Shown: positions 2,936 through 62,820 of the stretch, piece by piece | Layout: every line of letters starts with the position of its first letter | Numbering within the stretch: position 1 is the stretch's first letter | NCBI RefSeq assembly: GCF_003722355.1 | Contig: NZ_QWDD01000004.1 | Coordinates: forward strand, 62,001-126,000 | DNA length: 64,000 bases | Direction: 5' to 3' | Source of the DNA: Methylocystis hirsuta | GTDB lineage: Bacteria > Pseudomonadota > Alphaproteobacteria > Rhizobiales > Beijerinckiaceae | Program-made: the position numbers and the translations under genes | The notes under the pieces: model-generated | What the model was told of the DNA's origin: nothing | Database searches by the model: none | Seen by the model: only the letters and a program-made list of their open reading frames with translations

Positions 2936-5900
2936 TTATTCTTGGATTACGCCGAGGGAAATACGCCGATTTTTCGCGCGTCCCTCTTCGGTGTTATTGG
3001 CTGCGATCGGACGGTCCCCGCCATAGCCCTTCGCTTCCAAGCGCGAAGGGGCGATCCCCATTTGCGTGAGTTCACGAAATACGATTTCGGCGCGCGCTTT
3101 CGAGAGTCTCTTGTTCGCTATCGCATTACCGAGGTTGTCAGTATGGCCGCCGATGATCGCCTTGACCTTGGGATAGGCGGAAAGAATCCTAGCGACGTTC
3201 TGCAGTTGCTCGCGCGGTGAGGTCTGTGGAACCGTTTCGCCTTTGCCGAACGCGACTCGATCGAAATCGAACCAAGTGATTTTGGCGGCGGGCTTTCTTT
3301 CGTTCTCGAGGAATGCAAGCAACTTCGCTTCGAGTCCGGCCCTCGGAACGTCTAACTCGACACCATTCGGCAGGCTTATTCTGGCATATGCGTCTAGCGC
3401 CTCGCCCGTCTTTTTCGCCTCGCGTTCTCCGGAGACCCTTTCAGCTTGTCTCTCGATTGTCGAGTCAGGCTCTTTCGGAATGGTCAGCGCTGCCGGTGGC
3501 GGAGCGGGCATGGTTTGTTGCATTGGCGCGGGCGCCGGTTTCGTTATCGTATTCGGTTCTGTTTCTTGGGTGCCGAAAAACTTTGGCGCATAGCCGATAA
3601 CGACCGCGCCAATGGAGATCAATAACAAGCCCGCCATCAGAGACCATGCAACGCCCGTTCGACTCCGAACGGACAAATGGAGTTGATCTCTCGCAGACTG
3701 CTCTCCCTCGACCGCCTTTGCGACCTCAATCCAGAACGTGGAAAAAATCGCGACAGCGACGACCGCAATCCACAATTCAGGGCCAAGCGCCGCGGTCTGG
3801 AGGTACTGATTGAGTGCTGGCGCGGAGGTTATGGCCACGGAGAAGATAATCATTCCGATGAGCCAAAAGGTCCCGAACCGGTTGGAAAACAGTCCCTGTT
3901 CGAAGAGCGATAATTTTTCCTGCTTCATGTTCAGCGCCAAGCAGATATGCCCCAGGAGCCAGGTGACGAAGGCTGCCGTTTGGGCGAGCGCAAGGTCGCC
4001 TGTCCGGAAATAGATCCATAGGTAGAGCGCGGAGATTCCGACCGCCAACGGAGCTCCATTGCGGAAAATCCTGTAGACCAATTGCCGGCGCAAGAACCCT
4101 TCGAGCCGTGGCGCTTTCTTCTTCATTACATCCGGCTCCGCCGCCTCGGTGACGAAGATCGTGGAAGACGCCAAGTCCATCAGCAACTCGGTCAGGATGA
4201 TGTGGATCGGCGCAAAGGGAAACGGAACGCCGATGGCTAAGGGCACAAGGAAAATGGTGAGCAAGACGCCCTTGGCGGTCAGATAGTATGTCAGCCCCTT
4301 GCGGAAGTTATCGAGCGCCGAGCGCGCGACGCCGATCGCATCGGCGATATGTGCATAATTGTCATCGGCGAGGACGAGATCTGCAGTTTCCTTGGCGAGA
4401 TCGGCGCCGATCTCACCCATTGCAATTCCAACATCTGCGGCTTTGAGCGCGGGCGCGTCGTTGATTCCGTCACCGATGACCGCAACGATTTCGCCTTCTT
4501 GCCTGACCGCTCGGACGAGGCGCAGTTTCTGCGCCGAGGAAATGCGGGCGAACGCCCTAGTCTTTTCGAGCGTTGATTTGAGCTCGCTTTCGTTCATGTC
4601 GTCGAGGTCGGCGCCTGTCAACGCCTGCGGGTCTAAGCCGATTTCCCTCGCGATCGTCGCCGCGGTCGCCGGGTGATCTCCGGTCACCATGATCGTTTCG
4701 ACCTCGGCGGCTTCGAGGTCTCGAATCGTTCGGGCGACGCCCGGTCTCACGGGGTCGGAAAGGACGGCAAGCGCAAGAACTTCAACTTCGTTCGGATTGT
4801 CGAAATCTTGTAGTCGCCCGTATGCGACGACACGCTTTCCTTCTCTGACCTTCACGGCAAGCGCGTGTCGCAGTCGTTCCTTTTGGGAGGAATCCGCGAT
4901 GCTTTCAATTAGCGATTCGGCCCTGCCGGCGGCATATCCAGGACGCTCCCCACCGATGTCATAGCCAATGATCCTCAAAGGCTTGTTCTCGCCAAATCCC
5001 GAGAAACTTGCCGGCTTCGGAACATCAAACGAGTCTTCAACAACAGAGCGCACCGCAAGGTCGTGGGATCGTTGGAGTGCCTGGGAAGCGCCAACAGAAT
5101 ATCTCGTTTATTTTCCGCGGAGAGACTGGCGGGCGTACGCTCCTCGCCGTTCGGCAAGATGAACGTTTCGACCTGCATCCTATTTTCTGTGATCGTGCCG
5201 GTCTTGTCTGTGACAATTGCGGTGACTTGCGCCAGCACCTCGACGCCTCTCAGCCGCTTTACGACGAGTTTGCTGTTCGCCAGCCGAAAGGAGGCCAACG
5301 CCAGCGCCATGGTGATGATGATCGGCGGCTGGCCGGGTATCATGAGAAACGTCAGGGCAAGCCAGGTGACAATCATTTCCTGAAAATTGAGCCCTCGCAA
5401 AAACCCGATGGCTGGAATGAGGGCGCTGACCGCCAATGCAAAAATCGCCAGGACCTTGGCGAGCCGTGTCATCGTCTCCTGTAAGAGAGTCTTTTCCTTC
5501 GCGGCGAGAGCAACCTCGCGGGCGGTCTTGCCGAATTCACTGTTGCGGCCGACGGCGCAGGCAAGCGCCTTGCCTTCGCCGCTCATCACCACCGTCCCCG
5601 AAAATACCGAATTCTTACGTTCGGCAAGCGGCACGTCTTCGGAGACAACCGCCTTGGCGTCCTTCTCGACCGGCAGCGATTCTCCGGTCAGCGCCGCTTC
5701 GTTCACGATGAGGCCGTAAGACTCCAAGAGGCGGCCGTCGGCGGGTATCCGAACGCCTTCAGTGAGAACCAAAATATCGCCGACAACAACGTCGGTTGTT
5801 GGTATCTCTCGCTCCTCGCCTTCGCGAATCGCCTTCGTTGTCGGCGAAGTGAGGCGGCGGAGCGCGGTCATGGTGCGGTCGGTGCGGTATTTGTTGATGA

Positions 5901-6210
5901 ATTCAACCGCGATATACGCCGCCACGACGAAAACCATCACGATCGCTTCGTCGATCTTGCCGAATGCGAAAGACAGCGCGGCGATGGCGAGCAAAACAAG
6001 CATCATCGGCTCGCGCACACCCTCGAGAACGAGTTTGAACGCGCTCGTGGGCCTGACCTCGTCGATCGTGTTGGCGCCGAACCGATCGCGCAATGCGCTC
6101 ACGGCGCCAGCGGATAGGCCGTTCCTTTCATTGGAGCCGAATTCAGCGAGAAGGGATGGCGGCGAGACCGCCCACCAAGCGTCTTTCGTTCCAATAGCAT
6201 TTCCAGCCAT
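2936..6210 (-). pseudogene. P-type cation ATPase with C-terminal OmpA domain, one frameshift near 5062
   Basis: A P-type ATPase of about 1,090 residues split over two frames. The first part (6210 to about 5063) has the actuator TGES (about 175-178 from the ATG at 6210), a PGQPP loop where PEGLP is usual, and the phosphorylation motif DKTGTITEN. The second part has MVTGDHPATA, GDGINDAPAL and the C-terminal membrane helices. A last membrane segment near 3600 leads to a Pro/Ala-rich linker and a complete OmpA-like peptidoglycan-binding domain (GGHTDNLGNAIANKRLSKAR, GYGGDRPIAANN, GRAKNRR). The frames meet at DPT|DLAV, consistent with loss of a single G; restoring it joins the ORFs cleanly. Either the gene is recently inactivated or this is a sequencing error. 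The ion is unknown; the short N-domain resembles PMA-type proton pumps. Confidence 0.85.
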
Positions 6211-50962: not shown

Positions 50963-51784
50963 TCATTTAGTGTTTCGGGAGTGCGGGCTGGGCAGATATG
51001 CGACGGACGGCATCCCGCGGATTGGCTGCGGGTAGAGGGCGAGGAGCTCTAGCACCTCGGGTGGCATCTCGGTTTTGACAGGCAGTCCGAGCTCGCGCGC
51101 CTCAGCGGCCGTGATCGCGTAGTCGTGCGTCCAACGGCCGTTCGTCAGCGTCTTGGCGAGCTCCGCAGCGCGGGTCGCGTCCATGCGATCCGCCAAAAGC
51201 TGCGTTGCCGTCTGCTCGAGCTGGGCGAGCGCCTTTTGAGCGATGTCGGCGAGAACGAGGGTTTCATCGTCGATCTCTGCGATGGGCTTTTGCTCGATAA
51301 CACGCAAGAGCGAAACTGCCGGCAGGCCCTCGACCTGCGGTTCGAGCGGCCCCAGCACGGAGTGCCGACACATTACGATCTCGTCTGCGGCGAGCGCAAT
51401 TAATGTCCCGCCCGACATGGCGTAGTGCGGGACAAATATCGTCACCTTGCCCTTGTGCCCGCTGAGCGCCAGCGCAATCTGGGTCGCCGCCAGGTACAAG
51501 CCGCCCGGCGTATGCAGAACCACATCGAGAGGCACGTTCGGATCGGTCAATTGGATCGCGCGCATGACCTCTTCTGAATCGTTCATGTCAAGGTAGCGGA
51601 CGATGGGGAGACCCAAAAGAGTTAGCCGCTCCTCGCGATGAACGAGCAATATCACCCGGGATCCGCGGGCCCGCTCGATCTGTGAGATCTTGCGCTGGCG
51701 CAAGCGCTCGAGAATGAATTGTCTCAACAGCGGCTGCAGCAAAACAAAGATGACGAAGGCCCACAAGATAATGCTGAGGTCCAT
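50963..51784 (-). CDS. SDH-family Clp-fold membrane serine protease
   Basis: A 273-residue protein with an N-terminal membrane anchor (LSIILWAFVIFVLLQPLLRQ) and a Clp/crotonase-fold protease domain. Visible sites: RYLDMNDSEEVMRAI, DVVLHTPGGLYLAATQIALA, and FVPHYAMSGGTLIALAADEI holding the nucleophile Ser. The mid-region EIDDETLVLADIAQKAL is conserved. It is intact between remnants. Relatives cleave membrane or secreted proteins under stress; the target is unknown. Confidence 0.82.
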   Translation of the reverse strand: MDLSIILWAFVIFVLLQPLLRQFILERLRQRKISQIERARGSRVILLVHREERLTLLGLPIVRYLDMNDSEEVMRAIQLTDPNVPLDVVLHTPGGLYLAATQIALALSGHKGKVTIFVPHYAMSGGTLIALAADEIVMCRHSVLGPLEPQVEGLPAVSLLRVIEQKPIAEIDDETLVLADIAQKALAQLEQTATQLLADRMDATRAAELAKTLTNGRWTHDYAITAAEARELGLPVKTEMPPEVLELLALYPQPIRGMPSVAYLPSPHSRNTK

Positions 51785-52527: not shown

Positions 52528-54124
52528 TCAGGCTTCCGCGAAGGTCCGGAGTTTGCGCGCTCTGGACGGATGACGCAACTTCTCGAGCGCCTTCGCTTCA
52601 ATTTGCCGAATCCTTTCCCTTGTCACGCCGAAGGCCTTGCCTCCATCCTCGCCGATCGGAAGGTCCAGGGATGTCGGCTCCTGCCCAAGGGATAACATCC
52701 ACTCGACGCCCTGAACTGGAACCCCGGCCCGGACGGCGATTTTCTCTGTTGCAGGCTGGCGGCCCTGCTCCTGATAGAGCTTTCGCTGTTCCCGCCGGAC
52801 CTTGCTTGCCCTCTCCACCATGTGCACAGGAACGCGGATTGTGCGGCCTTGGTCCATGATGGCGCGCTCGATCGACTGCCGGATCCACCACGATGCATAG
52901 GTCGAGACCTTGACGCCATAGCGATAATCGAACTTCTCGACAGCGCGCATGAGGCCCAAGTTGCCGTCTTGGATCAGATCGAGGAAATCCAAGGAGCTGC
53001 GGCGGCGATATTTCTTTTGCGATCGAGACGACCAAGCGGAGATGGGATCTCACCAACTCCTCGCGCGCACTGTTGACATCCCGCCGAGCTTGACGGACCC
53101 CCGTGACAGTGCGGCGAAGCGTGGCGATGGGTACGCCAGCACGTCCCGCGATTGCCAGGATTTTCGCTTGCAACTCCGCGACACGGGCAGCGTCATGGTG
53201 CGGATGAAGATCTCCGGTCACCTGCAGGAGCTCCCGTTCGGTCTGTTGGAGCGTGCGCTGCTCGCTTTCCAACGCTGCGATGAGATCCGAGACGCGATCC
53301 GGATGCAAGCGTAGGTCCGCCATCTCGCAATCCAATCTCGCAAGTAGATCCCGAACTCGCGCAGCATCCTCTTGGCCAAGATTATGGCCAAGAACGCGGG
53401 TAGCAACACGCATTCGGCTGAGCTGGGTAATCTCGGTGTTAAGCGTAGAAATGCGTTCTATGCGCGCCAGAACGCCCGGCATCAACCGCACCTCGCGGTT
53501 GACAAGACTGAGAGAGGGCGCCTGCTCGCCGGGCGAGCCCCTCGTTTCCATGTCATCGACCCGGACGTCCTGATCGTCCCCGGGACATGCCTCGCGCTCG
53601 GCAACGCCTTGTACGATCTGGTCGTTGTTCCCGCGTCGTAGCGATTCATCAGCCAATACGGAAAAGTCGACGAAATCGCGAAGACGCCGATGGCCTTGCC
53701 GCAACTCGTTGCCCCATTCACGAATCGACTCGATGAGCATGGGAATTTGGCAAAGATGGTGCAAAATGGCCTGCTGGCCCGCTTCGATCCGCTTAGCGAC
53801 GGAGATCTCCTCTTCGCGGGATAGCAACGGGCTGTTTCCCATATGACGGAAATAGGCATTGATCAGATCGCGAGAGAAACTTACGTCATCACGCGGTCCG
53901 CTTTCCTCGCTGATTTCCCGATCTGTAGAGCCTTCACCCGTCGTCTCCGACAGACGCGCGACAGCGCGTGCGGGCGGTCGGGTTGGCCATGCACGATCGA
54001 ACTCGTCAAGAGGCGCCTGCTCGCGTGCGTCAATCATTGCAAGCTGGTCAATGACAGCATCCTGGGGCTCGAGGGAGGCGCCCTCGTTTTCCTCACGAAG
54101 CTGGAAATCCAATAGCGAAGACAT
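52528..54124 (-). pseudogene. RpoD-like sigma-70 factor, frameshift and region 4 deletion
   Basis: The start MSSLLDFQLREENEGASL and region 1.2 (FSRDLINAYFRHMGNSPLLS, REEEISVAKRIEAGQQAILH) lead to region 2 ([15 protein letters not shown]). There an extra A in a run of four (53015-53018) shifts the frame. The other frame resumes [40 protein letters not shown] and [20 protein letters not shown]. After [10 protein letters not shown] about 70 residues of region 4 are lost before [20 protein letters not shown]. The deletion argues that this is real decay; the homopolymer shift alone could be an error. Confidence 0.82.
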
Positions 54125-54617
54125 GGAAGTGATCCTCAAGGTATGCGCCGAGCCAAGCGGGCTTTAAGTGAAACGAATTCAGCCGGCAAAATCCCTCGTT
54201 CCTGAACGTTACGAGGGTTGGCTGGCCGGCGTGCGTCGCCGCATGATTAGCGATTTGGAGCTAAAAATCGCGGTGTGCGCGCCGCGGCGGCATTTTACAG
54301 TCCAGATGGCGCCTGAGACGGAAAAATCAAGGGTTTCAAAGGACTAGGGACCTCTAATTGCGCTTGTCGATCAACGATGCCGAGCAGGCGAAGGTGAATT
54401 TTTTCGGTCGCTGTGCACCTCACCACGCCGTACAAGCTTGGACGAGCGTCCGAAAGCAAATCATTGCCATTACGAAATGGGCGCCTCGGGATGGACGCCC
54501 GACATAGGAGCAACGCACGGTGCCGTTGGAAACGCAAAATGATGGCCGCTTGCACATGCAAGCGGCCAGTCAGGCGCGCCCATAGCTGGTGCACCCCTAT
54601 TCACGTCGGTCGCCAGC
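54125..54617. other. Intergenic, upstream of the sigma-factor gene
   Basis: About 490 bases. A small dyad CCCTCGT...ACGAGGG (54193-54217) lies about 70 bases before the sigma-factor start. No gene was recognised. Confidence 0.3.
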
Positions 54618-54758
54618 TTACGCCGCAAGCTTCAGGTTTGCCGTGGAGGTTTTGCCGGTGCGCCGATCTGTCTGCAGCTCAAACGTTACCCTCTGACCCT
54701 CGCTGAGGGCGTAGATACCGGATCGCTCGAGCACGGTGGCGTGAACGAACACGTCCAT
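54618..54758 (-). pseudogene. Cold-shock protein, C-terminal fragment
   Basis: A 46-codon piece starting MDVFVHATVLERSGIYALSE and ending RRTGKTSTANLKLAA, equal to the second half of a CspA-type fold (DVFVH...L..G...F). The RNA-binding first half (KGTVKWFNxxKGYGFI) is missing. Its apparent ATG falls inside the tail of the AI-2E transporter remnant, so the two genes were joined by a deletion. Confidence 0.65.
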
Positions 54759-55392
54759 ACGACGAAGGTTCCCAGCACCGGCACGATTGCGAGCAGGCCC
54801 ATGATCAGTCCCCACAGAAGCGGGGTAGGGAGATCGAGTCACCAAAACATTGGGCCAGCGAGCGCGCCTTGCGTGACGGCGACAGCACCGATTCCGAAGA
54901 TCGTGGCGTGGATCGTATCGACGATCCTGCCGAACAATTGACGCGTTTCCGCTTCCGAGAGCGGCGACAGACCTCTCAGCGTTTCGAGCGCCGCGGCCCG
55001 ATCTCTCAGTAAGTAGAATAGAAGATAGAAAGTGAGCAAAAACCCGAGCAGTTCTTGCGCGGATCTGCGAACGAACGAGGTCGCTGCGTTTGTAAGCCAA
55101 GAGGCGATCAAGCCGAACAAGGCGGGAAGATCGACTTTCTGCTCGATCCATTGGCTGAACGCCGCAAGCCAGGGGCCTCGGCCAACCGACGCCAGACGCC
55201 CGCTTCGACTTGTGTCTGAACGATGACCGCTCCCTTTGCGGCTTCGTCGACGAGCCGCCCGGTCACGAGCAGTGCGGGCACTACGACGATCAGAACGGAA
55301 AGCATTGCCGCGATCGTCCGGTTCTTCAACCTGGCCTCGATCGCTCGATGAGCCGCCGCGAACAAGACCGCCAGCACCGGCGCCCAGGTGCC
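54759..55392 (-). pseudogene. AI-2E/PerM-family transporter, broken
   Basis: Membrane pieces typical of AI-2E family permeases: WAPVLAVLFAAAHRAIEARL, MLSVLIVVVPALLVTGRLVD, LGFLLTFYLLFYLLRDRAAA, IHATIFGIGAVAVTQGALAG and PLLWGLIMGLLAIVPVLGTF. Frame changes occur near 55140 and a stop follows at GPMFW. The N-terminal helix pair and the last helices are absent. It lies 8 bases after the TPR-ATPase stop. Confidence 0.72.
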
Positions 55393-55400
55393 TCGCGGCG

Positions 55401-58400
55401 TCAGATTCGACTGGACCTGCCGATCAGCGCATGCCGAACGCTTGCAATTGCGCCCACGAGCGGGGGAACCAGGCTCATGCCGAGAACGATCGCCCACATT
55501 TCGATATCCGGCCTCTCCAAATGGAGTAGATGGGCCAGGCCCGGCACGTAGGATGCGGTCAGCAACAGGGCTGTGCAGAAGGCGAGCGCGGCCCACACCC
55601 ATGGATTACGGGTGACCTCGTTACGGAAGAAGCTGGCCTCGGGATCGCGCATGTTGAATGCGTGCCATAGCTGCGCGAACGCCAGCGTCAGGAAACTGAC
55701 CGTTACTGCGGCTCGTTCATCGAGCCCGAGCCAGAGCCGAGCCAAGGCGAGCGCGCCGAACGTCGCAGCGGTCAGGACGAAGCTGTAGAACAGGATCACG
55801 CTCCACTGAGCGTGAGCAAGGATCGACCCTCTCGGGTCGCGCGGTGGTCGCTTAAGCACGTCCTGCTCGCCTTCGCCCATGGCGAGGGCGAAAGCCGGAA
55901 AGACGTCGGTAACGAGGTTCAGAAAAAGAATTTGCAAAGGCAGGAGCGGGAGCGGCAGAGCAGAGATCATCGCAAGGCCGACGACTAGCACTTCGGCTAG
56001 ATTACAGGAGAGCAAATAAACTACGAAACGGCGGATGTTGGCGAAAATGACGCGCCCCTCGCGGACCGCCGCGACGATCGTCGGAAAGGCGTCGTCGAGC
56101 AAGACCATATGGGCCGCCTCTCGCGCGACGTCCGTGCCTCTATGCCCCATGGCGACGCCGATGTCTGCTTGCCGGAGCGCCGGAGCGTCATTGACCCCGT
56201 CCCCCGTCACGGCGACGATCTCGCCAGCAGCCTGGTGAGCACGCACGAGCTCGAGCTTCTCGACCGGGCTGACGCGGGCAAAGACTTCGGTCTGCAGCAG
56301 CCGCTCCCTTTTCTCTATCGCAAGCCGAGCAAGCTCTCGGCCCTCGATCACGCTGGGCGCCTCGCCGCCCAATCCCACAGCGCGCGCGATGCTCTGCGCG
56401 GTCATTGCATGGTCGCCGGTGATCATGACCACCCGGATGCCGGCTTCACGGCAAGCGCGCATCGCCTCGGGCACATTTTCCCGAGGCGGGTCCTCGAGGC
56501 CGATCAGGCCCAGGAGCGTCAAATCCTCGAATGGCGGGCCTCCGGGGTGCGCTTGCACGCGTATGGCGACGGCCAGCACGCGCAGTCCTTCGCTGCCGAG
56601 CTTTTCTGCCCGCGCACGCCACTTCCCACGCGTGGGCTCGTCGAGGGCGGCATCGCCGTCCTCCCCCGCAATGCGCACAGCGCTGGCAAGCACCGCTTCG
56701 GGCGCTCCCTTCACGGCGAAGAAATGGGCGCCGCCATGGCGATGCATGGTCGCCATCATCTTGACGACGGCATCAAAGGGATACTCACGAATCTCGGGGC
56801 TTTCGGCGAGGAGCTGAGCATGATCGAGTCCCGCGAGACGACCCGCGCGCAACAGCGCAAGCTCCATCGGATCGCCGCTGTCCTCCTCCGGGACATGGCC
56901 GAGCGTTGCGTTGTTGCACAGCACGGCGGTCTCGAGGAGACGAGTAAGCTGTGGGCTCCGATCCGGCTCGGCGGAGTCGGCGCCGGGCGCCGTGCGTTCG
57001 AACCCCATCTTGGTCACGCCGACTTCGCCCGATGGAAGCCATATCCTTCGCACCGTCATGCGATTCTCCGTCAGCGTGCCGGTCTTATCGGTGAGGATCA
57101 CCGTCGTCGCGCCGAGGGTCTCGACCGCCGATAGCCGCTCGATCAGCGCATTGTGACGCGCCATGCGCCACATCCCTCGTGCGAGCGCCAGCGTCGCTAC
57201 GATCGGCAATCCTTCCGGGATCGCCGCGACGGCAAGCGCGATTGCGGCTTCGACGATCAGGAACGTATCCCTATTTTGCGTCAATCCGATTCCGCCGATG
57301 AGCGCAGCCAGAATCAGCGTGACCCAGACGAGTTGGCCGGTGAGGCGCGCGAGCTTCTGCTCGAGAGGCGAGATTTCCGGCTCGGCTTCTTCGACGAGCT
57401 TCGAAATGTGACCGAGTTCGGTGGCCATGCCGGTGGCCGCCACGACGCCGACGCCGCTGCCTCGCGTAATGGCCGTGCCCTTGAAGAGCATGGAGGCGCG
57501 ATCGGAAACGCGCGCGTCGGCCGACACGGGCTGGATTATCTTATCGACGTTCGTCGATTCCCCGGTGAACATGGACTCGTCCGCTGCGAGGCTCGACGCT
57601 TCTACGATCCGCAAGTCGGCCGAGACCGCATCGCCAGCCTCGAGGAGAACAATGTCTCCCGGCACAAGGCGCTCGGCCGGGACGAGGCGCGTGCACGCGC
57701 CGCGGCACACCCTCACTGGGTGCGTTCCGAGCGCCCGGAGCGCCTGGATCGAACGCACGGCCCTGATCTCGGCCACAAAACCGATGAGAGCGTTGACTGC
57801 GAGCACGCCGACGATCGCGCTGCCCTCCTCCAATTCTCCGAAATAGAAAGCCGTTCCCGCCGCCACGGCGAGCAGCGCGACCACGGGACTCCGAAACTGA
57901 TGGGCGAGGATGGCGAGTGTTCCGATTCGACGCCGCGCGATGATCGTGTTCAGTCCGTACAGATCGAGCCGCCGCTCCGCTTCCTCCTCGGAAAGCCCCG
58001 TGGCGACAGAGACGCCGAGTGCGCCGAGCACCTCGTCCGCAGACCGTGCGTGGGGGAAGTCTGGAACGGCTCTTTTTTCTTTTTCTTTGCGAAGGTCGCG
58101 GCCTACCGCCTTTTCGTAACGCGCGACGAGAGTATCGGGCGTGTAGCCGCGCTTCACCAGCACCGTTGCGTCCTGATAGCCGCCGCCAACTCCGATCGCA
58201 GAAACGCCCGTGGCGCGTTTGAGCCAGAAGAGCCAAATGGCAAAGGCGATCAGGGCGAAGCCGACGGCGACCACGATCAAGCGGTACGAGGCGCCGAGCG
58301 TCGCAGGCGCGGCCGGGATCGTCGGAGCGGCGGCGGCTGGAGGTGCGGCTCTTTCGATTAGCCTGTTTACTTCGTCGAGCGCTTCTTTCGCTTTGGCGCG

Positions 58401-59114
58401 GCGCGGGTCGAGCTTCAGAGCGGTTTCGAGGTCTCGCTTAGCGTGCTCGAGATCTTGTTTCCCGCGATAGGCCATGGCCCGGTTGAAGAACGCGTCTGCG
58501 AATTTCGGATCGAGTTCGATCGCCTCGTCGTAATCGGCGATGGCCAGCTCGAGATCACCCTCGGCTTGGAAAACAGCGCCGCGGTCCAGGTGGAGCGCGG
58601 CCGATCTCGGATCGAGCCTCACAGCCTCGTTGAAATCGGCCAGAGCCTTGTCGAGTTCGCCCTTGGCGCGATGGGCCCTGGCGCGACCGCCGTAGCCCGT
58701 AGTCAGATTCTCGTCGAGGCGCAGCGCCCTGCCGTACTCCTCGATGGCGCGATCGAAATCGCCCTTCGCGACATAGATCGACGCGCTTTCGGTAAGAGCG
58801 AGAGTCGACTTCGGATCGAGTCGCAGCGCCTTGGCGAGATCGGCGAGGGCGCGACCGAAGTCGCCTTTGACCCGATAGGTGGTGGCCCGATTGATGTAGG
58901 CCGTGACGCGATTGCGCTTGGTTTCCTTATTTCCGCGCGCGATGACCTCCGTGCAACCGGCGATCCGCGCGTCAAGATCGGCGCCGGCACATCTGGCCGA
59001 GCGATCGCTGCCGGCAAAGGCAATGGCGCTCAGCGAAATGCAGAAGAACCCTGCAAGCGCAAACCGGGCAAGTGAAGATTTGACGGAAAAGGGGAAAATC
59101 GAAAGGCGCGCCAT
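55401..59114 (-). CDS. P-type cation ATPase with N-terminal signal and TPR domain
   Basis: A single 1,237-codon ORF. Residues 1-35 form a secretion signal (FALAGFFCISLSAIAFAG). Residues about 68-240 hold five 34-residue TPR repeats (for example GDFGRALADLAKALRLDPKS, GELDKALADFNEAVRLDPRS). A membrane segment (LIVVAVGFALIAFAIWLFWL, 279-298) then returns the chain to the cytoplasm for a P2-type ATPase: TGES (517-520), PEGLP (633-637), DKTGTLTEN (Asp676), GDGVNDAPAL (971-980). The TPR block would thus sit in the periplasm. Calcium or another cation is likely by resemblance to SERCA/PMR-type pumps, unproven. All catalytic motifs are intact. Confidence 0.9.
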   Translation of the reverse strand: MARLSIFPFSVKSSLARFALAGFFCISLSAIAFAGSDRSARCAGADLDARIAGCTEVIARGNKETKRNRVTAYINRATTYRVKGDFGRALADLAKALRLDPKSTLALTESASIYVAKGDFDRAIEEYGRALRLDENLTTGYGGRARAHRAKGELDKALADFNEAVRLDPRSAALHLDRGAVFQAEGDLELAIADYDEAIELDPKFADAFFNRAMAYRGKQDLEHAKRDLETALKLDPRRAKAKEALDEVNRLIERAAPPAAAAPTIPAAPATLGASYRLIVVAVGFALIAFAIWLFWLKRATGVSAIGVGGGYQDATVLVKRGYTPDTLVARYEKAVGRDLRKEKEKRAVPDFPHARSADEVLGALGVSVATGLSEEEAERRLDLYGLNTIIARRRIGTLAILAHQFRSPVVALLAVAAGTAFYFGELEEGSAIVGVLAVNALIGFVAEIRAVRSIQALRALGTHPVRVCRGACTRLVPAERLVPGDIVLLEAGDAVSADLRIVEASSLAADESMFTGESTNVDKIIQPVSADARVSDRASMLFKGTAITRGSGVGVVAATGMATELGHISKLVEEAEPEISPLEQKLARLTGQLVWVTLILAALIGGIGLTQNRDTFLIVEAAIALAVAAIPEGLPIVATLALARGMWRMARHNALIERLSAVETLGATTVILTDKTGTLTENRMTVRRIWLPSGEVGVTKMGFERTAPGADSAEPDRSPQLTRLLETAVLCNNATLGHVPEEDSGDPMELALLRAGRLAGLDHAQLLAESPEIREYPFDAVVKMMATMHRHGGAHFFAVKGAPEAVLASAVRIAGEDGDAALDEPTRGKWRARAEKLGSEGLRVLAVAIRVQAHPGGPPFEDLTLLGLIGLEDPPRENVPEAMRACREAGIRVVMITGDHAMTAQSIARAVGLGGEAPSVIEGRELARLAIEKRERLLQTEVFARVSPVEKLELVRAHQAAGEIVAVTGDGVNDAPALRQADIGVAMGHRGTDVAREAAHMVLLDDAFPTIVAAVREGRVIFANIRRFVVYLLSCNLAEVLVVGLAMISALPLPLLPLQILFLNLVTDVFPAFALAMGEGEQDVLKRPPRDPRGSILAHAQWSVILFYSFVLTAATFGALALARLWLGLDERAAVTVSFLTLAFAQLWHAFNMRDPEASFFRNEVTRNPWVWAALAFCTALLLTASYVPGLAHLLHLERPDIEMWAIVLGMSLVPPLVGAIASVRHALIGRSSRI

Positions 59115-61299: not shown

Positions 61300-62820
61300 C
61301 TAAGGTCCCTCGTCGAGGAGCTGAACGATAGAACCATTGGCGTGCAGCCGCCGGATCGCTTCGGCGACGAGACCGGCGACGGTGACCAGAGTCAATCGAT
61401 CGCCAAGCGCGCCGGCGACAGCGGATTGCAGCGGCACGGAATCGGTGACGATAAGCGTGTCAATTGGCGCGTCTGCGAGCGTGGACGCCGCCGTTTCCGA
61501 GAAGACGCCATGAGTCACAGCGACCCAGACGCGCGCCGCGCCGTTCGCCCGGCATGCGGCGGCGGTGCGCGCCACAGTGCCTCCGCCGGAGATGAGGTCG
61601 TCGATGATGATTGCAGTGCGGTCCTTGACGTCGCCAGCGAAAATGTCGCCGACGACGCGGCCCTCGCTGCGATGTTTGTCCATGAAGGCCTTGGCGACGG
61701 GGCGTCTCAACACGCGTTCCAGCCGCAGGCGAAACAGTTCCGCGCGCTTCTCGCCGCCAAGATCGGGAGACACGACCGCGACCGGCGAATCTCCGACGTT
61801 TGCGACGACATGACGCGCGAAAAGCGCCTGAGCGTCGAGGTGAACCGTCTCGCAACGAAAGGCGTTCTGAAAGGCGGCGATGTTGTGCACGTCGATGCAG
61901 ACCAGACGGTCCGTTCCGAGCGCCTCAAAGAGCTGGGCGACGTAACGCGTCGTCACCGGATCGCGCGGCTTCGTGCGCCGGTCCTTGCGCGAGAAGCAAA
62001 GATAAGGGGTGACCGCGGTGACCCGCTCTGCGCCGGCGTCTTTCAGCGCGCCAATGAAAAACAATAGTTTGCACAGCTTGTCGGCGCTGCTTGCCGTCTC
62101 ATCCCCATTCAGCGTGAAGACCACATAGCAGTCGCGGCCGCGCATATTTTCAAGCGGCCGGATCTTATATTCGCCGTCTTCGAACTCACGGTCTTCGAGA
62201 GGCGCGAACTCAGCGCCGAGACATTGTGCGACGTCATCGGCAAAGGACATGCGGGCGCCGAGCGCGAAAACCGCAAGGCCGCGATATACGGCTTCGCGCG
62301 GCGCCCGTCTGGGCGCGCCATCCAGAACATGCGCCGAAATCGCGGTGAGCGCCGAGTCGATCGTGCTCCCGTCTTCCGAAAGCGGCGCCACCAGAATTTC
62401 GACGATGGCGCGGTCGCGTCCATTTTCCACCCTGGTGTATTGCGCGAGCACGGGTTGGCCGGTGCGCCGCATCTCCTTCAACAGGCGACGCAGCCGCACC
62501 GCTCCCCTGCGACCTGAAGCTTCGCTCAGCCTGTCGCCAATCTTGCAGGAACCGAGCAACATCGCCGCCGCTGACGCGCCTTCGGTCAGAACGGCGTCGT
62601 CATCGGATCCTTCGAAACGGTGAACGAATAGGGTCTCGGCGGCCGCGCGGTCTTCCGGCGCGAAGCTGATCGCGCTTCTCCTCGGCGCCACAGCGCCATC
62701 ACGCGCCGCCTTCCAGCGCTCATGCACGATATCGAGCTCAAACCTTTTCGGCTGCGGCGCAAAATCCAGCCGCTCGAAAAGCCACTTGAGCGGCGGTTCA
62801 GTCATCGCCATCGTCGTCAT
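61300..62820 (-). CDS. prs: PRPP synthetase with N-terminal PAS-like domain
   Basis: A 506-residue fusion. Residues about 30-185 resemble a PAS_5-type sensory domain (RRSAISFAPEDRAAAETLFV, ASAAAMLLGSCKIGDRLSEA, DRAIVEILVAPLSEDGSTID). The rest is ribose-phosphate pyrophosphokinase: DREFEDGEYKIRPLENMRGR, TPYLCFSRKDRRTKPRDPVT, VVSPDLGGEKRAELF and the PRPP loop AIIIDDLISGGGTVARTA. It makes PRPP from ribose 5-phosphate and ATP for nucleotide synthesis. The fused PAS could tie PRPP supply to redox or ligand state. It is intact; a 19-residue copy of its PRPP loop survives at 48692-48749. Confidence 0.85.
   Translation of the reverse strand: MTTMAMTEPPLKWLFERLDFAPQPKRFELDIVHERWKAARDGAVAPRRSAISFAPEDRAAAETLFVHRFEGSDDDAVLTEGASAAAMLLGSCKIGDRLSEASGRRGAVRLRRLLKEMRRTGQPVLAQYTRVENGRDRAIVEILVAPLSEDGSTIDSALTAISAHVLDGAPRRAPREAVYRGLAVFALGARMSFADDVAQCLGAEFAPLEDREFEDGEYKIRPLENMRGRDCYVVFTLNGDETASSADKLCKLLFFIGALKDAGAERVTAVTPYLCFSRKDRRTKPRDPVTTRYVAQLFEALGTDRLVCIDVHNIAAFQNAFRCETVHLDAQALFARHVVANVGDSPVAVVSPDLGGEKRAELFRLRLERVLRRPVAKAFMDKHRSEGRVVGDIFAGDVKDRTAIIIDDLISGGGTVARTAAACRANGAARVWVAVTHGVFSETAASTLADAPIDTLIVTDSVPLQSAVAGALGDRLTLVTVAGLVAEAIRRLHANGSIVQLLDEGP

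Follow-up and report, generated by a model that had tools for sequence, protein, structure and literature searches.

Architecture of the window protein

We analyzed a 64,000-nucleotide stretch of the Methylocystis hirsuta genome (the window; assembly GCF_003722355.1, contig NZ_QWDD01000004.1, positions 62,001 to 126,000 of the forward strand), in which one gene joins a tetratricopeptide repeat (TPR) domain to a P-type ATPase. The contig has 158,363 bases and belongs to a genome of four contigs and 4.2 Mb. The open reading frame (ORF) at 55401..59114 lies on the minus strand and runs for 1237 codons from ATG to TGA without an internal stop; a preliminary description of this DNA, which gave no strand, had likewise called the frame uninterrupted. 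Its product, the window protein, consists of the following parts (AlphaFold2 confidence is given as predicted local distance difference test, pLDDT):

59013..59114, minus strand: Sec-like signal, residues 1-34 (n-region with R/K, core 15-33, AFA/GS), from sequence, hydropathy and motifs
58395..59012, minus strand: predicted exported N-cap with Cys42 and Cys54, and five TPR repeats, residues 35-240, from Pfam, AlphaFold2 helices and Cys conservation
58212..58289, minus strand: predicted transmembrane (TM) helix, residues 276-301, from an AlphaFold2 helix of low pLDDT and hydropathy (279-297)
58080..58211, minus strand: linker, residues 302-345, which keeps a shortened beginning of a CupA-like cupredoxin domain, from alignment to the intact TPR-TM-cupredoxin protein encoded on contig C3 of this genome
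55404..58079, minus strand: complete P2A-like ATPase, residues 346-1237, from Pfam, NCBIfam, motifs, the homologue P0002 and fold matches

Pfam matched TPR families at about residues 66-240, followed by Cation_ATPase_N (355-420), E1-E2_ATPase (465-654), Hydrolase (672-984) and Cation_ATPase_C (1054-1223), and the catalytic motifs TGES, PEGLP, DKTGT, KGAP and GDGVNDAP were found at positions 517, 633, 676, 802 and 971. A hydropathy script marked hydrophobic segments at residues 15-33 and 279-297, and a motif search placed the AFA/GS site of the signal-like start at residues 32-36; the signal was judged from a reading of the sequence together with this script and the motif positions. The AlphaFold2 model of residues 38-1237 (mean pLDDT 84, predicted template-modelling score 0.67) showed five TPR helix pairs and a capping helix with pLDDT mostly 91-98, a 26-residue helix at 276-301 within a low-confidence stretch (blocks 34-62), and then a P-type ATPase fold. 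Hydropathy, Pfam and the model helices thus agree with the signal-like N-terminus, five TPRs and membrane segment described previously. Judged by these features, the protein is a natural chimera, with about 345 N-terminal residues from an exported TPR family and a complete P2A-like ATPase as the remainder.

The ATPase part and its relatives

The best NCBIfam models for the ATPase part were of type IIA (PMR1-type, 570 bits; SERCA-type, 541.5 bits), and the E1-E2 architecture is present together with TGES, DKTGT, KGAP and GDGVNDAP, as for P2A ATPases; the earlier assignment of a complete P2-type ATPase with its catalytic motifs therefore holds. Because both equivalog cut-offs were missed (570 against 798.3 bits and 541.5 against 703.4 bits), we filed the enzyme only as P2A-like and left its ion unassigned. 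It carries PEGLP, SCNLAE and NLVTD, the motifs in TM4, TM5 and TM6 where type IIA ATPases have their Ca2+-site residues. The pump presumably moves Ca2+, or a divalent cation related to it, outward. A fold search with the AlphaFold2 model returned SERCA, LMCA1 and SPCA1 as the best PDB matches, and the closest sequence with a solved structure was LMCA1 (lmo0841, E about 1e-146). The likeness to LMCA1, SPCA/PMR1 and SERCA thus covers catalytic motifs, best sequence match and best folds, but the alignments start at about residue 355 or later, and the TPR-TM front has no counterpart in these proteins.

In a search for relatives of the ATPase we scored 8000 candidates, of which 7524 lay above threshold, and checked the precomputed Pfam lists of the best 120. 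A single one, P0001, listed TPR domains; because the other 119 did not, the TPR-ATPase architecture is rare on the ATPase side. The best of these other relatives was 73% identical to the window ATPase, and one TPR-free relative (P0002, 901 residues) aligns from its own first residue at position 341 of the window protein. The preliminary description had named ATPase homologues that never carry the TPR part as an argument against itself; among the best 120 of 7524 this was nearly what we found, with P0001 as the sole exception. P0001 has 1237 residues, is 99% identical to the window protein with the same architecture, comes from a separate metagenome contig and represents 9 member sequences. Because of P0001 and the recurrence of module fusions described below, we rejected an assembly artefact. 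By these comparisons, the fusion is lineage-specific seen from the ATPase side and recurrent seen from the TPR side.

The TPR module precedes many kinds of transporter

When the front of the window protein was used alone as a query, the matches had other transport proteins as their remainders, beside many generic TPR proteins. A narrower search used residues 20-125 (106 residues) from the front of a relative, P0142, against candidates of about 395-1258 residues, a length window that excludes short free-standing proteins by design, and matched 70 proteins. Minimum values of 55% for identity and 90% for coverage of the query left 43 matches, and every one of these carried an ion-transport or metal-handling partner; the limits were picked once the list was known, and the partners were called from precomputed Pfam for 41 proteins and by eye for two that are truncated or frame-broken. 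The remaining 27 comprised two fusions of partial coverage (P0153 and P0271), a CopD protein at 39% identity (P0283, excluded) and 24 generic-looking proteins (kinase, caspase, WD40 or TPR alone).

The partners included P-type ATPases of the classes P1B (with Cu and Zn/Cd names), P2A (the window protein and P0147) and P3B (Mg-type), the F/N-ATPase subunits a and b, CPA2 antiporters with TrkA_N, NhaD-type antiporters (CitMHS families), TerC, and VIT1 with a ferritin-like stretch seen by eye. In total, we counted nine kinds of ion-transport partner from seven unrelated Pfam families in Methylocystis and related methanotrophs, and Pfam verified the partners of eight representatives. A CupA-like cupredoxin also occurred as a partner, as did cytochrome b561 with a molybdopterin domain in Methylocystis sp. 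MJC1. The latter gene lies on a plasmid (locus L063, 7724-10531, minus strand), where the TPR-TM module is fused to cytochrome b561 and a molybdopterin oxidoreductase domain. One protein, P0147 (1642 residues), holds TPR, P-type ATPase and AI-2E parts in a single chain.

The N-terminus of the window protein fits this family of exported modules in its signal-like start, its Cys pair and its several TPRs of the same family. Cys54 was invariant and Cys42 nearly invariant among 21 module proteins, and 63 of 64 modules had the pair. Identity to the window module among the 63 others was 98% for P0001, 54-71% for 61 and 48% for one, and module lengths were mostly 180, 214, 248 or 282 residues, which amounts to between four and seven complete repeats; one module was longer. 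Directed full-text searches of an open-licence library gave no paper on such TPR-transporter fusions; the component parts are of known kinds, and it is their systematic combination that we did not find described there.

As a rule, a domain fusion links a transporter with the substrate or regulator that belongs to it. One apparently periplasmic module on nine transporter kinds suggests instead a control over the place or company of a transporter, irrespective of its cargo. The best-supported reading, to which we give a probability of roughly one half, is that the module has a shared periplasmic docking or clustering function. The sequences themselves establish the fusion, its recurrence, the use of one module by unrelated partners and the TM pattern described below. 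On the docking reading, the TPR solenoid of the module that these methanotrophs place before many different ion-transport proteins would tether or cluster its own transporter at a common periplasmic partner, or with other TPR-tagged transporters; such docking would be independent of the ion moved. If this were true, the module would offer a directly testable handle on how methanotrophs sort or cluster inner-membrane proteins, and would show that membrane proteins are re-addressed in modular fashion in nature.

Modules are partly inherited and partly exchanged between partners

In a tree of 64 modules the partner type changes 21 times. Because this lies between the minimum of 13 and the shuffled mean of 45, partners are partly inherited and partly exchanged. 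The mixed groups starred in the tree joined subunit b with cupredoxin (100/100), CPA2 with NhaD (100/100) and CPA2 with TerC (100/98), with module protein identities of 98% for subunit b and cupredoxin, 97% and 95% for NhaD and CPA2, and 67% for CPA2 and TerC. Neighbouring CPA2 and NhaD genes of genome G251 have 794 nucleotides of DNA in common at 96% identity, and this duplicated DNA spans the coding part of the module and only about 15 nucleotides before the likely start.

Near-identical modules before different partners (98%, 97% and 95%) are what neutral shuffling would produce: repetitive TPR genes would recombine easily and fuse to plasmid neighbours, and the TPR part would be useless to the ATPase. 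The frame breaks in several fusions and the decayed genes around the window ORF fit this explanation as well. It is nevertheless improbable in our estimate, since the fusions are long and open, occur in many records and mostly show 54-71% module identity, since all 43 strong matches have transport or metal partners, and since the number of TM segments fits the topology of the partner where that is known. The short upstream reach of the G251 duplication speaks for a further explanation, by which the module, as a strong signal joined to a soluble domain, aids export, insertion, folding or stability, so that membrane proteins which were acquired horizontally and are poorly expressed reach higher levels. 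In its favour, too, the fusions that were read have the module at the N-terminus, where it begins like a signal, and several fusions are plasmid-borne; a short signal would suffice for the purpose, however, whereas four to eight TPRs are kept with conserved sequence, length steps of whole repeats and the Cys pair, and a free TPR-TM-CupA-like protein exists. We regard such an aid as unlikely, if somewhat less so than neutral shuffling.

Partner topology argues for periplasmic TPRs

The preliminary description had placed the TPRs in the periplasm. We compared the TM pattern among the fusions themselves. A script detected an extra hydrophobic segment between TPRs and partner in all 27 scanned fusions to P-type ATPases, VIT1 and cupredoxin, and the b561 fusion protein has one too, by eye. 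In 26 fusions to NhaD, CPA2, TerC, subunit a and subunit b there was none beyond the partner's own helices, except for a weak one in P0169 (TerC); segments were assigned to partner helices by eye, with the Pfam start positions of NhaD, CPA2 and subunits a and b as a help, and in the three subunit b fusions the partner's own helix fell below the hydropathy threshold.

The N-terminus of P-type ATPases is cytoplasmic, and those of F-ATPase subunits a and b are periplasmic. A charge bias for an outside N-terminus was found in 3/3 subunit a fusions. The N-terminus of KefC is periplasmic according to PMC10224563. Because an extra TM segment stands before partners with a cytoplasmic N-terminus and is missing before F-ATPase a and b and Kef-type antiporters, partner topology argues for periplasmic TPRs. 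With the signal sequence, the conserved Cys pair and the one TM segment before the ATPase pointing the same way, we strongly infer from sequence that the TPR solenoid faces the periplasm, in support of the earlier placement.

The fusion joint lies within a CupA-like cupredoxin domain

Contig C3, which belongs to the genome of the window, encodes a TPR-TM-cupredoxin protein in an open frame of 368 residues beside a Cu-like ATPase. Residues 260-345 of the window protein align to this protein through the TM segment into the first ~35 cupredoxin residues, and the alignment of the linker alone scored 113, against a maximum of 50 in 2000 shuffles. Because of this alignment, and because P0002 aligns from its own first residue at 341, the fusion joint lies within a former cupredoxin domain. 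By these alignments, a TPR-TM-CupA-like gene was the site in which the gene of the window protein arose, and ~35 of its cupredoxin residues are left before the ATPase.

The complete cupredoxin domain is missing in the window protein, which has the first ~35 residues only, and is full length in free-standing relatives. In one such relative, P0240, the intact domain matched Pfam Cupredoxin_1 and had CupA as its best solved relative (E 4e-22). As the cupredoxin is truncated, we rejected a copper role of the window protein. Pairs of a TPR-TM-CupA-like gene and a heavy-metal ATPase gene were found in five genomes in all; such a pair is an in-trans version of the fusion. In one of them (locus L174, 27155-30666; NZ_CP034087.1, 183154-186665) the two genes overlap by 4 nucleotides.

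According to PMC7558416, CupA is described from Streptococcus pneumoniae and only a few other streptococci, where it traps copper at the cytoplasmic membrane after cell entry and hands Cu(I) to CopA. The likeness to CupA (PDB 4f2e and 2mry) lies in a TM segment followed by a CupA-matching domain in module relatives such as P0240, and just as CupA works with CopA, the TPR-TM-CupA-like genes adjoin a heavy-metal ATPase gene. They differ in that here a TPR domain precedes the TM segment, and the window protein keeps only ~35 residues of the CupA-like part. A CupA-like domain on the cytoplasmic side, as the hand-over of copper to CopA by CupA implies, agrees with periplasmic TPRs.

This pairing of a TPR-TM-CupA-like protein with a copper-like ATPase, and the transfer of Cu(I) to CopA (PMC7558416), would favour another reading, in which the TPR domain brings to this pump a periplasmic protein that delivers or accepts its particular substrate; a precedent in trans is given by the TPR-protein-associated tripartite ATP-independent periplasmic (TRAP) transporters (TPATs), which have a periplasmic TPR-like component (PMC10942540). 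We consider recruitment of this kind very unlikely. The chaperone part is the cupredoxin, which is predicted to lie on the opposite side of the membrane from the TPRs and is truncated in the window protein, and module relatives are fused to antiporters, to F-ATPase subunits and to pumps that import Mg or export Cu/Zn. A module that serves the delivery of one substrate is unlikely, since its partners share neither a substrate nor a direction of transport. The preliminary description had proposed that the repeats recruit a substrate-delivery or wall protein to the pump; a general recruiting or docking role fits our data, whereas a substrate-delivery protein is disfavoured by module relatives on pumps for different ions and of opposite direction, on F-ATPase a and b and on antiporters.

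Distribution of the module among genomes

Within the genus, the module is fused to a membrane partner in at least 12 of 39 genomes, counting two fusions that run into a contig end and one that is a redox protein (MJC1). Plasmid pGW6_1 of Methylocystis rosea GW6 alone has four modules: a TPR-subunit a in an N-type-like ATPase operon, a TPR-Zn-type ATPase, a TPR-Mg-type ATPase, annotated from a start within its frame, and a TPR-TM-CupA-like protein that stands free. The TPR-subunit-a gene is intact in this strain and frame-broken in M. rosea BRCS1 (locus L173, 3443-4363; NZ_CP044329.1). Among other long TPR frames of the genus, from eight regions, those of G025 and G031:C2 were subunit-a fusions. 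The frames of G032, G014, G009 and G007 were rejected as module fusions, being by eye generic TPR or caspase-like proteins, and the frame filter gave no frame for the regions G031:C5:141000 and G010.

Samples of the order (397 genomes) and class (289) gave, besides the genome of the window, only TPR matches of 38-44% identity; here, as in the family sample, scoring covered no more than 6-10 candidates per genome, so absences are soft. In the family sample, 10 of 248 genomes had a module match at E<=1e-42, and 31 of 248 had a pmoA/amoA-type gene. Nine of the ten module-match genomes were among the latter; the tenth, G134, has no pmoA/amoA-type gene and showed many overlapping, generic-looking TPR matches. 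Of the nine genomes, which lie in three genera, six had transporter fusions, one the redox fusion (MJC1), one a TPR-TM-CupA protein and one a free TPR protein, so that 7/7 genomes of this sample with transport or redox membrane fusions have pmoA/amoA-type genes. The difference between nine and one gives a Fisher p of 2e-8, uncorrected for kinship. When 18 genomes were selected by a match to the module, a pmoA/amoA-type gene was present in 17 of them, G134 again being the exception. We treat the association as a lead and not as a result.

A more far-reaching version of the docking idea would be a periplasmic address system shared by the methanotrophs of this family, in which the TPR tag is copied as a cassette before unrelated pumps, antiporters and rotary-ATPase subunits and docks at a common receptor. 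In one form of it, the tag would decide whether transporters enter the intracytoplasmic membranes, where methane monooxygenase resides, or are kept out of them. This is speculative, and we hold it to be improbable.

Comparison with known systems and weight of the evidence

CcmI/CycH, PilW and MamA are periplasmic or secreted TPR proteins in which a TPR solenoid serves as an interaction platform at a membrane; to our knowledge, none of them is a module reused before many transporter families. Below the cut-offs, models of PilW and MamA matched the window protein and a CcmH/CycH TPR profile matched P0147, and the MamA structure was also among the structural relatives of the module. TPATs such as Tp0956 resemble our case in a periplasmic TPR-like hairpin protein that serves an inner-membrane transporter (PMC10942540), but there the TPR protein is a separate component and serves one transporter type, whereas here it is fused, and to many types. 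The window protein is no TPAT, its partner being a P-type ATPase rather than TRAP membrane subunits, and the likeness is restricted to the periplasmic TPR. In the M. rosea GW6 operon with TPR-subunit a, atpD and epsilon come first, followed by AtpZ/AtpI-type genes, a, c, delta, alpha and gamma. This is the gene order described for N-type ATPase operons (PMC5376962), from which the GW6 operon differs by the exported TPR front on its subunit a; the main text of the N-ATPase papers PMC5376962 and PMC4154653 does not use the word TPR.

Several observations weigh against a common docking or clustering function. The role is deduced from the partner promiscuity of the module, which resembles consensus-like TPRs generally. 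Two partner kinds, the CupA-like cupredoxin and b561/molybdopterin, have no ion-transport role, and several fusions are frame-broken or truncated. Because the fusions are accessory, as their occurrence in at least 12 of 39 genus genomes indicates, the function is not essential. The topology was also not uniform in all measures: charge counts, a crude method, were contradictory for NhaD and TerC, with NhaD mostly pointing the opposite way, they gave no clear sign for CPA2 and the wrong sign for VIT1, and helix counts were unstable. We dropped charge bias as contradictory for these four partners and used the subunit-a result alone. The AlphaFold2 model of a CPA2 fusion had a pLDDT of about 26-47 in its transporter part and was unusable for the side of the TPRs. 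A common dock or clustering device remains our best guess, followed by an expression or insertion aid, neutral shuffling and, as the least economical, substrate delivery.

Neighbouring genes

Right behind the stop codon of the ATPase gene lies a decayed gene:

54755..55386, minus strand: remnant of a broken AI-2E-family (PF01594) gene, split over two frames and immediately downstream, from tblastn and the domains of P0147

The remnant is 35-37% identical to the C-terminal part of P0147. At 54633-54761 (minus strand), the C-terminal part of a cold-shock domain stands in one frame with AI-2E remnant sequence, which suggests a deletion joint. Sigma-70 sequence is spread over overlapping frames at 52528-54139 (minus strand) and is apparently broken (Pfam regions 1.2 and non-essential, with a further piece by eye). 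A second P-type ATPase, at 3746-6192 (minus strand), is split over two frames and apparently broken as well, and it has no adjacent module match. An SDH-type ClpP-like serine protease (PF01972) is encoded at 50963-51784 (minus strand); we would guess that this protease and the phosphoribosyl pyrophosphate synthetase-like gene at 61300-62820 are part of a stress island.

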